Of a DNA stretch of 64,000 nt, positions 51,367-55,715 are shown in pieces. The stretch comes from Candidatus Cryptobacteroides avicola (GTDB lineage: Bacteria > Bacteroidota > Bacteroidia > Bacteroidales > UBA932), in assembly GCA_017695115.1 (NCBI GenBank), contig JADILV010000036.1, positions 56,453 through 120,452 of the forward strand, given 5' to 3'. Position 1 is the first letter of the stretch; each line of letters starts with the position of its first letter. Made by a program: the position numbers and the translations under genes. A model generated the notes under the pieces. It did no database searches. It saw only the letters and a list, made by a program, of their open reading frames with translations, and was not told the origin of the DNA.

Positions 51367-52704
51367 TCAGGACAGTCCGAACTCTTTCCGGATTCTTTCT
51401 ACGGAGTCGAGAAGCTCCCATCCGAAAAACTGCACGTATTCCTGGGATTTCCTGCCGTGGCGGCATATTTCCACATAGTCCTGATACGGTTTGCGTCCTA
51501 CATGCCCGTATGCCGCAGTAGGTTCGTAGATAGGTTTTTTCAACTGGAATTTCTCGATGATCTTGGCCGGTCGCAGATCGAACATGCTGCCGATATGTTC
51601 TGCTATCTCCGCGTCGCCCAGCTGTCTGCCGTTCTTGTCACATGCCGCGGTGCCGTATGTGTTCACGAAGATGCTTACAGGCTGGGCTACGCCTATAGCA
51701 TAGGCCAGCTGGACAAGCATTTCCCGGGCGACACCGGCAGCGACCATGTTTTTGGCGATGTATCTTGCGGCATAAGCTGCAGACCTGTCTACTTTTGAAG
51801 GGTCTTTCCCGGAAAATGCACCGCCTCCGTGCGCTCCTTTGCCGCCGTAGGTGTCCACGATGATTTTCCGTCCTGTGAGTCCTGTGTCCCCGTGCGGACC
51901 TCCGATGACGAATTTCCCGGTCGGGTTCACATGAAGGATATAGTCATCCTTGAAAAGTGCCGCCGTCTCCGGGTGCAGTTCTTCTATCAGCATCGGTATC
52001 AGTATGTTCTGCACATCTTTCCGGATCTTTGCCTGCATGGCGGCGTCCACCCTGTCCTGTCCGTACTGGTCGCAGGCCTCCCTGTATGTCATGTGTCCGA
52101 GTTCTTCCGCTACGAACTCGTCATGCTGGGTGGATATTACGATGGTGTGCACTCTTACCGGTTTGCCCGTATCTCCGTCGTATTCTATAGTGAACTGGGA
52201 CTTGGAGTCTGGGCGCAGGTATGGCATCAGTTCCGGCATTTCCTTACGTATCCGCGCAAGTATCTGCAGGGCCTTATGCGAAAGCGCCAGTGGCAGGGGC
52301 ATATATTCATCCGTGTCACAGCATGCATAGCCGAACATCATTCCCTGGTCTCCGGCTCCCTGCTCTTCAGGGTCGGCTACATCTACGCCCCTGTTTATGT
52401 CCTGGCTCTGCTCGTGCAGGGCGGAGAGCACTCCGCATGAGTTCCCGTCGAACATGTATTCCGCCTTGTTGTACCCTATCCTGTTGATGACCCTTCTCGC
52501 GACGCTCTGGATGTCCACATACGCATCTTCCGAGCGGACTTCCCCTCCTACGACCACCAGGCCTGTGCTGCAGAAAGTCTCGCATGCGACTTTCGCTTCC
52601 GGGTCCTGTTTCAGGAATTCGTCGAGGATTGCATCCGAAATCTGGTCGGCCACCTTGTCAGGATGGCCCTCTGATACTGATTCTGAAGTAAATAGATAAT
52701 TCAT
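51367..52704 (-). CDS. metK: S-adenosylmethionine synthetase
   Basis: Makes S-adenosylmethionine from methionine and ATP in the cytoplasm. Motifs: [13 protein letters not shown] at the start, [12 protein letters not shown] near residue 115, and [16 protein letters not shown]. Length 445 rather than the 380-390 of E. coli, as in other Bacteroidetes. I chose ATG 52704; the longer frame to 52758 reads through the terminator hairpin of the leader. The leader (52705-52858) looks like a SAM-sensing riboswitch followed by an intrinsic terminator, so the gene should be shut off when its product is abundant. Confidence 0.97.
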
Positions 52705-52711
52705 AATATGT

Positions 52712-52744
52712 AAAATAAAAAAGCCGTCAGCGGAAAGCTGCGGC
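52712..52744 (-). terminator. Intrinsic terminator (attenuator) in the metK leader
   Basis: On the minus strand GCCGCAGC (52737-52744) pairs with GCTGACGGC (52723-52731, one bulged A) around five bases. TTTTTTATTTT follows, and the metK ATG comes eight bases later. A terminator directly before the gene it precedes only makes sense as a conditional one. Confidence 0.8.
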
Positions 52745-52794
52745 CTGCACGAACACAAATATTGATTTTTATCGCCGGCATTACAGCCGACAGG

Positions 52795-52858
52795 TATGTC
52801 AACATTTTAGCATTTTTTTAAGTGGTTGCAAGCAGCCAAATCTTTCCACATGTATTTC
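52795..52858 (-). ncRNA. SAM-II-like riboswitch aptamer upstream of metK
   Basis: The minus strand holds, in order, GTGG, GATTT, CTTGCAA, CCAC, an A-rich stretch and ATGCTAAAA. Order and spacing match the SAM-II pseudoknot: stem P1 is GTGG/CCAC (52846-52849 with 52822-52825), and TTGCA in the loop can pair with the TGCTA before the conserved AAAA. The location before metK, and the terminator after it, fit SAM feedback. GCTGC in the aptamer (within 52832-52836) is complementary to GCAGC in the terminator's 5' arm, a possible antiterminator. Assigned by eye; no covariance search was done. Related SAM-V elements look similar. Confidence 0.65.
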
Positions 52859-52864
52859 CGGCTG

Positions 52865-52894
52865 CAAAGGTAATACAAAAAATCGAATTCCAAA
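52865..52894 (-). promoter_or_regulatory. metK promoter
   Basis: The minus strand reads TTTG (52891-52894), 18 bases, TACCTTTG (52865-52872). Both Bacteroidetes consensus boxes are exact, making this the best promoter in the window. It starts directly after the sulfatase stop and gives a leader of about 150 bases. Confidence 0.8.
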
Positions 52895-52900
52895 CATAAT

Positions 52901-54436
52901 TTACGGCAGAGTGACATCGGGCAGGGTTACCTTGAAAAGTTCGCTTTCCCGGTGCTCCCTGTATATGATGTCTGTCATCTTCTTTACAATGTCGGGATGC
53001 TCCGTAGAGATGTCATGGTCTTCATGGATGTCGGAAGCCAGATCATACAGGTGCGGTATCCCTTTGATAACGACAAGTTTCCAGTCTCCCATACGGACGG
53101 CTATCTGGTCGGTTTCGTGGAATTCCCAGTACAGATAACCGTGCTTTTCCTGTCCTTCACCGTTTCCCAGAAGGGTCGGGGCGAATGATATGCCGTCGAA
53201 GCAGTCCCCTTCAAGGTCTTTGTTTATGTATTTCTTCGGGAACCTTCTGTCTCCCGCAAGGTCGCAGAATGTAGGCAGGATGTCATAGAATGCCAGCTGA
53301 TGGTCATTCACGGTGCCGGCCGGAACCTGTCCAGGCCACCATGCTATGAACGGCACCCTTATGCCTCCTTCGTAGCACTGGCGTTTGATCCCTCTCAGTT
53401 TCCCGTCACGTCCGAAGAATTCCGGGTCAGCTCCTCCTTCCTCATGAGGCCCGTTGTCGCTGCTGAACAGTACCAGCGTGTTTTTATCAAGGCCTTTTTC
53501 CTTCAGTTTTGCCATTATTTCACCCACGTATGCGTCCAGACGCGTAATCATGGCCGCAAATTCGGCGTGGGTATGTTCGACAGGGTTGTACCGGTTGCCT
53601 TCACTGCCTCCCCAGGTCTTGTCTTCAAAGAACCTTCCTTTGTAGAACTGCAATATGGAATCTTCGGGCTGGGCCAGCTCCGCATGAGGGAGAGTATAGG
53701 TGAAGAATCCGAAGAAAGGCTCTTCTCCGTCCTGGCTGTCAAGCCATGCAAGGGCCTCCCTGTGTATCAGGTCGGCTGAATACTGCGGACGCTTCCTGTA
53801 GTCGTCACCGTACATCGGGTAGCCGATATTGTCTTCAAGTGTGATGCGCACGGTACAGGTGTCTCCTTTTGACCTGCTGTATCTGTTGAGGAAGTTCGGA
53901 TAGTAGAGATGTGCCTGGAACTGGCAGATGTAGCCGTAGAATTCATCTATCCCCCTCTTGTCGGGAGTAGAGCAGGAACTCTCGTAACCTCCTGCCCACT
54001 TGCCGAACATTCCCGTAGTGTATCCGTTCTGTTTCAGTATTTCAGGAAGGATGATATGTTCAGGATCGTAAGGCTCCTGTCCCACTGTGGAATAGTCGTC
54101 ATTCTCCCCGTATTTTACTGAAGGAGACCCCGGCCAGTATTCCTTGTTGCCCCTTACATGTCCGTGTCCGGAGTGCTGTCCGGTCATGATTGCGGCTCTT
54201 GACGGGGCGCTTACCGGGCTTCCTGCGTATGCCTGGGTGAAACGCATGCCTTCCTCGGCCATCCTGTCTATGTTCGGGGTGAGTATATATTTCTGCCCGT
54301 AGCAGGCGAGGTCCCCGTAACCCATGTCATCGCAGAGTATGAAGATGATGTTCGGCCTGTCGCATTTCGGGGCTGCGGCGAGCGCAGAGACCGACAGTAT
54401 TGCGGCGCCGGAGCAGAGGATGGATTTGGATTTCAT
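52901..54436 (-). CDS. Sulfatase of family S1, Ser-type
   Basis: A 511-residue secreted sulfatase (signal peptide ending near A-L-A-A-A). Calcium ligands are in C-D-D-M-G-Y-G-D (Asp36, Asp37). The formylglycine site reads S-P-V-S-A-P-S-R, so Ser76 must be oxidised by an anaerobic sulfatase-maturating radical SAM enzyme; none is in the window. The G-P-H-E-E-G motif follows later. Family knowledge: S1 sulfatases remove sulfate from host or algal glycans or from small sulfate esters; the substrate cannot be told here. It starts one base after the U32 gene, so it is cotranscribed with ispB-like and U32 genes, an odd pairing. I chose ATG 54436; the longer frame overlaps U32. Confidence 0.92.
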   Translation of the reverse strand: MKSKSILCSGAAILSVSALAAAPKCDRPNIIFILCDDMGYGDLACYGQKYILTPNIDRMAEEGMRFTQAYAGSPVSAPSRAAIMTGQHSGHGHVRGNKEYWPGSPSVKYGENDDYSTVGQEPYDPEHIILPEILKQNGYTTGMFGKWAGGYESSCSTPDKRGIDEFYGYICQFQAHLYYPNFLNRYSRSKGDTCTVRITLEDNIGYPMYGDDYRKRPQYSADLIHREALAWLDSQDGEEPFFGFFTYTLPHAELAQPEDSILQFYKGRFFEDKTWGGSEGNRYNPVEHTHAEFAAMITRLDAYVGEIMAKLKEKGLDKNTLVLFSSDNGPHEEGGADPEFFGRDGKLRGIKRQCYEGGIRVPFIAWWPGQVPAGTVNDHQLAFYDILPTFCDLAGDRRFPKKYINKDLEGDCFDGISFAPTLLGNGEGQEKHGYLYWEFHETDQIAVRMGDWKLVVIKGIPHLYDLASDIHEDHDISTEHPDIVKKMTDIIYREHRESELFKVTLPDVTLP

Positions 54437-54437
54437 A

Positions 54438-55715
54438 TTATTCGGTTTTTGTATCGGTATTTTCCCAGATATAGACCTTGTCGGAGCGTCGGAGTTTCCC
54501 TCCGCAAGACTCCAACAGGGCCGCTTCAACAGGTATCGAACAGTAAATGCCTTTGTCGGCTTGCGCCGCTTCTTTCAGGTCCACCCTGATTTCGGGGACG
54601 GTCATTTCCACGACTCCTGTAGAAGGGCCGATAATGAGTATCCTGTCTCCTTTTTTCAGGCTGGCGGACTCGACGAGGATTTCGGCCACTCCGAGTTTTC
54701 CGAACCAGTTCGTGACTTTTCCGCTGTAGACTTTCTTCCTTGTGGCCTTGCTGCCGTAGACCTCGCTCCACTGTCCGAGCCGCGCACCCTGGTAGTACCC
54801 GTCCCAGAATCCGCGGTTGAACACTTCCGACAGTTCCTTTTTCAGTCCTGCGGCAAATTCCGGAGTGTAGGAGCCTTCGCACACGGCATCAGCGGCACGC
54901 CGGTAGCAGGAGGCCACACGTTTTACGTATTCTGCCGACCGTGCCCTCCCTTCTATCTTGAATACGGTCACGCCCGCATCTATGATCTTGTCCATGAATT
55001 CGATGGTACACAGGTCTTTAGGTGACATTATATACTTGTTGTCCACTACGAGCCTGTTCCCGGTCTCCAGGTCCGTGACCTCATAGCCGCGCCGGCATAT
55101 CTGATAGCATGAGCCCCGGTTGGCCGAAGCCCCGTATTCATGCAGGCTGAGGTAGCACTTCCCGGATATGGCCATGCAGAGCGCCCCGTGCGCGAACATC
55201 TCTATCCGCACCGGCTTTCCTGACGGCCCTGTGATGCCCTCCCTGTCTATGATGTCCTTTATTTCCTTGACCTGATGGAGATTCAGCTCGCGGGCGAGCA
55301 CTATTACATCTGCGTATTGTGCGTAGAAACGCAGCGCTTCGGAGTTTGATATGCTCAACTGTGTGGAAATATGCACTTCCACCCCTATCTGTCTGGCGTA
55401 GATGATGGCCGCCATGTCGGATGCTATTACGGCCGTCACGCCGGCTGCCTTTGCCGCATCGAGAGTGCGGCGCATATCTTCCAGGTCCTCATTGTACAGC
55501 ACTATATTCAGCGTCAGGTATGTCTCTACCCCGTGCTCCCGGCAGATGTCGCAGATTTCCTGCAGGTCCGTCATCTTGAAATTGTTGGCCGAGTGGGAGC
55601 GCATATTGAGTTTCTCCACCCCGAAATACACCGAGTCCGCTCCTCCCTGGATAGCTGCGTGCAGGCATTCGAAATTGCCCGCAGGGGCCATTATGTTGAT
55701 GTCTTTCTTTTCCAT
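54438..55715 (-). CDS. U32-family peptidase / tRNA hydroxylation protein (TrhP-like)
   Basis: A 425-residue protein with the U32 signature E-M-F-A-H-G-A-L-C-M-A-I-S-G-K-C (around residues 170-190). The start M-A-P-A-G-N-F-E and the R-G-S-C-Y-Q-I-C-R-R segment have the Cys spacing known from the family. Once called collagenases, members such as YegQ/TrhP and RlhA are now linked to hydroxylation of uridine in tRNA or cytidine in 23S rRNA, with prephenate-derived chemistry and probably an iron-sulfur cluster. The TrhP role is more likely for this short form. It starts nine bases after the ispB-like gene. Confidence 0.88.
   Translation of the reverse strand: MEKKDINIMAPAGNFECLHAAIQGGADSVYFGVEKLNMRSHSANNFKMTDLQEICDICREHGVETYLTLNIVLYNEDLEDMRRTLDAAKAAGVTAVIASDMAAIIYARQIGVEVHISTQLSISNSEALRFYAQYADVIVLARELNLHQVKEIKDIIDREGITGPSGKPVRIEMFAHGALCMAISGKCYLSLHEYGASANRGSCYQICRRGYEVTDLETGNRLVVDNKYIMSPKDLCTIEFMDKIIDAGVTVFKIEGRARSAEYVKRVASCYRRAADAVCEGSYTPEFAAGLKKELSEVFNRGFWDGYYQGARLGQWSEVYGSKATRKKVYSGKVTNWFGKLGVAEILVESASLKKGDRILIIGPSTGVVEMTVPEIRVDLKEAAQADKGIYCSIPVEAALLESCGGKLRRSDKVYIWENTDTKTE

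Follow-up and report, generated by a model that had tools for sequence, protein, structure and literature searches.

How can a SAM-II aptamer control a gene in a phylum described as rarely using Shine-Dalgarno sequences? The question is raised by the leader of metK, encoding SAM synthetase, in the window (the whole 64 kb stretch of DNA analysed here). On the minus strand, the roughly 190 bases upstream of the metK start codon begin with a promoter, continue with a SAM-II aptamer, and end with an intrinsic terminator (Table 1). Very probably, the aptamer belongs to a riboswitch whose output stage is most likely this terminator: SAM would cause termination, and lack of SAM antitermination.

The metK leader

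The landmarks listed in an earlier note on this DNA (promoter, GATTT, CTTGCAA, GCTAAA, GTGG/CCAC, terminator, and T-run) are all present on the minus strand.

Table 1. Parts of the metK leader, in window coordinates
Feature	Position	Strand	Basis
Promoter, -33-like TTTG	52891..52894	-	sequence
Promoter, -7-like TACCTTTG	52865..52872	-	sequence; TAnnTTTG in relatives' leaders
SAM-II aptamer	52797..52855	-	RF01726, 62.7 bits
P1 5' strand, GUGG	52846..52849	-	sequence and Rfam match
P1 3' strand, CCAC	52822..52825	-	sequence and Rfam match
GATTT landmark	52838-52842	-	sequence
CTTGCAA landmark	52826-52832	-	sequence
GUGGAAAG, predicted antiterminator strand 1, overlapping P1	52842..52849	-	folding
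L1 core GCUUGCA, predicted antiterminator strand 2	52827..52833	-	folding, clade comparison
Pseudoknot core, 3' strand, conserved GCUAAA	52806..52811	-	sequence, Rfam match, relatives
AAAUGUUGA, pairs with downstream UCAAUAUUU in the minimum-energy fold	52799..52807	-	folding
Spacer hairpin GUCGGC/GCCGGC	52774..52791	-	folding
UCAAUAUUU, partner of 52799-52807	52757..52765	-	folding
UGCAGGC, complement of the L1 core, overlapping the start of the terminator 5' arm	52743..52749	-	folding, clade comparison
CUUUCCGC, complement of GUGGAAAG, within terminator arms and loop	52730..52737	-	folding
Terminator hairpin, -12.0 kcal/mol	52723..52744	-	sequence and folding
Terminator T-run TTTTTTATTTT	52712..52722	-	sequence
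metK, SAM synthetase, 445 aa (ATG 52702-52704)	51367..52704	-	sequence, metK comparison

The promoter elements resemble the Bacteroidota-type consensus. The motif TAnnTTTG lies 5' of the aptamer in 130 of 139 relatives' leaders, versus 3.4% of mononucleotide shuffles. The terminator hairpin reads GCCGCAGC-TTTCC-GCTG-A-CGGC, with a stem of eight pairs and one bulge, and its T-run ends 7 bases before the metK ATG. The closest named relative of this metK, at 94%, is that of Candidatus Cryptobacteroides faecipullorum; another relative reaches 98%. Upstream, a sulfatase-like reading frame (named by eye; 52901-54529, minus strand) ends about 6 bases before the -33 element.

A 34-codon reading frame (52701-52805, minus strand) has its ATG directly after GCTAAA and a TGA that overlaps the metK ATG. 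Similar frames are found in loci L013 and L082 and are absent from L083 and L084. It was considered as a translated coupler and treated as chance. Among the 30 listed of 53 upstream frames of at least 20 codons, 6 end within 4 nt of metK.

The Rfam model RF01726 (SAM-II, long loop) matches the leader with E 1.1e-9, well above its cut-off of 44 bits, in agreement with the SAM-II class that the earlier note had proposed. It is the sole gathering-level Rfam match within the window, and the host genome holds just this one RF01726 match. Of 400 genomes sampled from the window's genus, 366 have a match to the model (356 above the cut-off), as do 143 of 150 good-quality ones. Another sample, which includes the host genome, gave 51 of 61 (other families, 16 of 24), and a family-wide draw gave 34 of 39. 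Some genomes have two matches. The core letters GAUUUG, UUGCAA, and GCUAAA are retained in the window and its relatives, whose loci were found in part by a pattern demanding most of those letters. Among 80 loci fetched by the aptamer (L001-L080), 78 have metK 3' of it; in another locus, L213, the aptamer has no recognisable metK start behind it. Earlier literature already describes SAM-II with terminators, and SAM-II in Bacteroidetes; judged by its sequence, the window element belongs with the terminator-type SAM-II riboswitches.

Two arrangements in one genus

In all, 158 metK loci were read, leaving 142 once duplicates were removed. By genome handle, 60 distinct loci were assigned to the window's genus, with Candidatus Cryptobacteroides as closest named relatives. 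These fall into two classes, with nothing intermediate: in 25 loci the start codon lies 1-5 nt after GCUAA (direct class), and in 35 it lies 50-279 nt away (long, or terminator, class). A further 66 distinct loci, the nearest metK matches, are of unproven genus; they comprise 3 direct loci, 61 long ones (67-476 nt), and two (L135 and L136) assigned to the direct class by eye, which the pattern missed because of their longer L1. Upstream of metK, both of these carry a longer, hairpin-like L1 insert, and the start codon directly follows the aptamer. Over 110 nt, the leader of L151 does not differ from that of L206, a locus from another genus of the family. Loci from other families have long leaders in 16 of 16 cases.

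A strict pattern for the direct class matches at least 118 of 400 genus genomes, a lower bound because the pattern fixes the first codons; among the matches listed, the reversed control pattern has none. Across the order, the direct arrangement was sought in 247 genomes, with four pattern matches, none SAM-II-like by eye, and two matches to the reversed control. In the direct class, a start codon so close to GCUAA leaves no room for a terminator, and the same aptamer would act directly on translation.

Trees of the metK protein bear on the number of class changes, not on their direction, and that number may shift, since a single gene underlies them and some branches are long. Each tree needs five changes. 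At least three are forced by well supported branches among 118 rows, and at least four among 136 rows, where a single direct clade is rejected (AU p 0.006). With the genus loci by handle plus four outgroups (68 rows), at least three are forced and the single direct clade is again rejected (AU p 0.0009). Within one genus, then, this riboswitch seems to have switched its output stage more than once, and probably several times.

P1 differs between the classes. Over 27 direct-class rows, 96.9% of P1 cells are paired versus 76.5% when shuffled, with 30 double-changed cells versus 8.1; slid controls reach at most 58.1%. The covariation that the earlier note had proposed to look for in this stem is therefore present in the direct class; in the terminator class GUGG/CCAC is nearly invariant. 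With a standard cap, the median P1 stability is -9.35 kcal/mol in direct loci (48 contexts) versus -6.1 in long leaders (52 contexts; Mann-Whitney p 4e-13, uncorrected for kinship). The weak P1 of the terminator class fits a strand that would be surrendered to an antiterminator; in other families, without visible terminators, P1 is weak too (-5.25). For the distal pseudoknot helix, P2b, no support was found in either class of the genus, nor for a role there as the switching element. In other families support is weak: P2b cells are 73% paired versus 66%, and 36 of 1000 shuffles are as high. The core part of the pseudoknot is invariant and hence uninformative.

Terminators and their aptamer complements

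A simple consensus scan found no terminator in the window leader, probably because the stem has a bulge. A folding scan tolerant of bulges took its place; it covered the first 320 nt of each leader and was applied to 96 distinct long leaders (35 from the genus by handle and 61 from the nearest-metK set). A terminator-like hairpin of -8 kcal/mol or better is present in 94 of the 96, versus 19.8% of shuffles, and one of -10 or better in 86 (9.4%). Among the 35 by-handle leaders, the numbers are 35 (16.4% of shuffles) and 32 (8.1%). At -8 or better, just 1 of the 16 other-family loci has such a hairpin, which makes it probable that the order also uses other outputs. The SAM-II metK leaders L002, L005-L008, L017, L019, L021, L034, L037, and L038, all from other families, have no terminator-like hairpin; where measured, the gap in other-family leaders is 59-91 nt. 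The scan chose a different, longer hairpin in the window, L013, L082, L102, L104, L107, and some others; the terminators of the window, L013, and L082 were therefore named by hand. For the window, this is the hairpin and T-run that the earlier note had read as an intrinsic terminator before metK.

The usual terminator arms are CUCCGCAU...GUGGGG. Their 5' arm is complementary to AUGUGGAG, which comprises the P1 5' strand and its upstream flank. Five P1-flank positions were compared with the arm at 78 usable loci of 96 (the window and 17 others were excluded): 78.7% of cells are paired versus 69.0% with arms swapped, the maximum of 2000 shuffles being 74.6% and slid registers giving 40-51%. Reduced to 52 distinct combinations, the values are 71.9% versus 64.4%, with a maximum of 72.7% in 5000 shuffles. 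In a hand-chosen alignment of 33 rows, 94.1% of these cells are paired versus 88.4%, a level reached by none of 500 shuffles; 20 cells are double-changed versus 9.9, three pairs have changed on both sides, and slid controls reach at most 58.6%. The P1 strand and the terminator arm covary, then, in most terminator-type relatives.

Pairing energies agree. For 90 distinct P1/arm duplexes, the native mean is -13.6 versus -11.8 for swapped strands, a difference matched in none of 5000 swaps. The native strand is within the best 10% in just 17 of the 90 loci, because P1 is nearly identical everywhere. Against shuffled leaders, complementarity between the P1 strand and the downstream leader has p<=0.05 in 75 of 96 loci, compared with 7 of 95 for a control promoter segment and 1 of 16 in other families. 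(That last count lends no support to the idea that such complementarity is ancestral in the order.) The remaining 21 loci, with p>0.05, include the window (0.069), L082, L083, L084, L151, and L155. RNAalifold, which returns one structure and so cannot display two alternative states, gave P1 and the terminator for the 33-row alignment and left out the antiterminator. The prediction for most terminator leaders is that the P1 5' strand pairs with the terminator arm as an antiterminator, which SAM binding would break.

The window and its four relatives L013, L082, L083, and L084 form one clade in the metK tree (the window is L001). Here the complement of the L1 core GCUUGCA, UGCARGC, runs from just ahead of the terminator 5' arm into that arm. 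It is present in 5 of the 96 long leaders, exactly this clade, versus 1.8% of shuffles; it is known from this one clade of five related loci. In two of the window's near relatives, L083 and L084, the P1-strand complementarity is largely absent. Folding of the window leader puts the antiterminated state at the energy minimum (-47.5 kcal/mol, z -3.3, equalled by 1 of 200 shuffles). Enforcing P1 and the terminator gives -40.6 kcal/mol, a value that excludes pseudoknot and ligand energy. The minimum-energy fold combines GCUUGCA/UGCAGGC, GUGGAAAG/CUUUCCGC, and AAAUGUUGA/UCAAUAUUU. The earlier note had suggested that GCTGC in the aptamer pairs with GCAGC in the terminator arm to give a ligand-dependent choice. 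The two-state choice between aptamer and terminator-arm pairing holds up, but in a slightly different register: the clade's L1-core complement and the minimum-energy fold point to GCUUGCA/UGCAGGC together with GUGGAAAG/CUUUCCGC.

These elements suggest how the switch would work. With SAM bound, P1 and the pseudoknot would be held, the terminator would form, and metK would be shut off. Without SAM, aptamer strands would pair with the terminator arms, allowing readthrough. For the window, the predicted antiterminator would consist of the P1 5' strand, the L1 core, and AAAUGUUGA, each with its downstream partner. That the ligand is SAM, that the switch runs in this direction, and that transcription reads through without SAM are points that we infer.

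Alternative explanations

The terminator might instead be a constitutive attenuator or partial block, with SAM acting on translation or RNA stability alone. The metA leader of Sinorhizobium is partly reported to be of this kind: no SAM response is predicted for its terminator, and translation and stability are described as controlled (Scheuer 2022, PMC9373788). Also in favour is the absence of a terminator-like hairpin at -8 kcal/mol or better from 15 of the 16 other-family loci. However, a constitutive terminator needs no complementarity to the aptamer, and in most relatives' terminator leaders the arm is complementary to aptamer strands, with covariation. Constitutive attenuation is accordingly unlikely, at perhaps a small fraction of the weight given to a SAM-responsive terminator.

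It is improbable that the aptamer is real and answers to a related compound, such as SAH or both, rather than SAM. In its favour, the consensus P2b is unsupported in the genus; against it stand the retained GAUUUG, UUGCAA, and GCUAAA (most of which the search pattern demanded) and the metK gene behind the aptamer in nearly all of the 80 aptamer-fetched loci. Least credible of all is that the terminator and the complementarities arose by chance in a GC-richer leader. The window's own P1 complementarity falls short of p 0.05, and its hairpin, cut down to a 25-nt piece, scores z -1.1, with 28 of 200 shuffles as good. Nevertheless, the hairpin is kept in nearly all relatives' long leaders, and swapped-strand and slid controls do worse than native pairings; these comparative counts already largely refute chance. 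The preferred reading remains a SAM-II riboswitch in which SAM would favour the terminator.

Possible antisense copies of aptamer pieces

From other genera of the family, 28 loci were fetched and 24 were readable. Four are direct (gap 1-4) and one has a gap of 12; among 19 long leaders, 7 pass the -8 kcal/mol threshold for a terminator-like hairpin. Complements of different aptamer pieces recur in these sets, in counts uncorrected for kinship. CAAAUC, the complement of GAUUUG, is found in 8 of the 19 sister-genus long leaders versus 5.4% of shuffles, and in 2 of the 96 main-set leaders (L151 and L155). UCC[AG]C, the complement of GUGGA, is found in 75 of 96 (shuffles 16.4%), 7 of 19 sister-genus (14.3%), and 4 of 16 other-family leaders (12.8%). 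For UUUAGC, the complement of GCUAAA, the numbers are 22 of 96 (6.1%), 2 of 19 (6.7%), and 1 of 16 (5.9%), and this motif may reflect one terminator family.

This suggests that the terminator arm is often an antisense copy of some aptamer piece, the piece varying by clade. We lean slightly towards a general form of the idea, in which arms would repeatedly evolve antisense to a clade-specific piece: the P1 5' strand in most of the genus; the L1 core GCUUGCA in the window's clade; GAUUUG in sister genera; and GCUAAA in another clade. Clades would also repeatedly drop the output stage and set the start codon against the aptamer.

Relation to known systems

The earlier note took most described SAM-II elements to mask the ribosome site and therefore saw a platform change in one that works by a terminator. 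That view finds no support in the literature, in which SAM-II terminators have been described since 2005. Many representatives were then reported with putative terminators, Bacteroides thetaiotaomicron included (Corbino 2005, PMC1273637). Barrick and Breaker (2007, PMC2258182) describe SAM-II as the only riboswitch most often linked to terminators in alpha- and beta-Proteobacteria, by mechanisms then unproven. SAM-II terminators are also reported from Sinorhizobium, in a study that includes experiments (Scheuer 2022, PMC9373788), and the long-loop group RF01726 is listed for Bacteroidetes and marine sequences (Weinberg 2010). SAM-II with a terminator, and RF01726 in Bacteroidetes, were already known, and the claimed novelty is mostly gone.

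The window element shares with long-loop SAM-II its sequence match, P1 position, L1 and GCUAAA core, SAM-related gene, and phylum; it differs in that the consensus P2b is unsupported in this genus and the predicted antiterminators are clade-specific. Terminator-type SAM-II elements of Proteobacteria, including that of S. meliloti metZ, likewise place an intrinsic terminator after the aptamer, with OFF logic proposed; they are described as best known before metA and metZ, whereas this one precedes metK. For Barrick and Breaker, the distal pseudoknot interfaces with the platform; here the P1 5' strand and the L1 core are the predicted switching strands. The S. meliloti metA element, with AUG1 downstream of the aptamer, resembles the direct class in its nearby start codon; unlike what is usual in Bacteroidota, it has a Shine-Dalgarno sequence. 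Among the open-licence PubMed Central papers listed, judged by title and start of abstract, none concerns a within-genus change of SAM-II output or clade-specific antiterminators; no paper was found there on Cryptobacteroides and a riboswitch, and on SAM-II and metK in this phylum Weinberg 2010 alone was found. The SAM-I (S-box) metK leaders of Firmicutes also form a SAM OFF switch with terminator and antiterminator, as proposed here, and their aptamer fold is unrelated.

Implications

Riboswitch expression platforms are described as diverging fast (PMC13273304), which makes their origin and change hard to study. Here one gene and one aptamer class, across hundreds of species, present both outputs with several changes between them, which makes it possible to follow a change of output and to test it with matched constructs. 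If terminator arms do evolve as antisense copies of aptamer pieces, this orthologous metK riboswitch would be a natural series of platform births and losses, transcriptional versus translational, within genus and family. Even where Shine-Dalgarno sequences are rare, as in this phylum, SAM-II could thus be put to use in either of two ways: with a terminator, or with the start codon against the aptamer.
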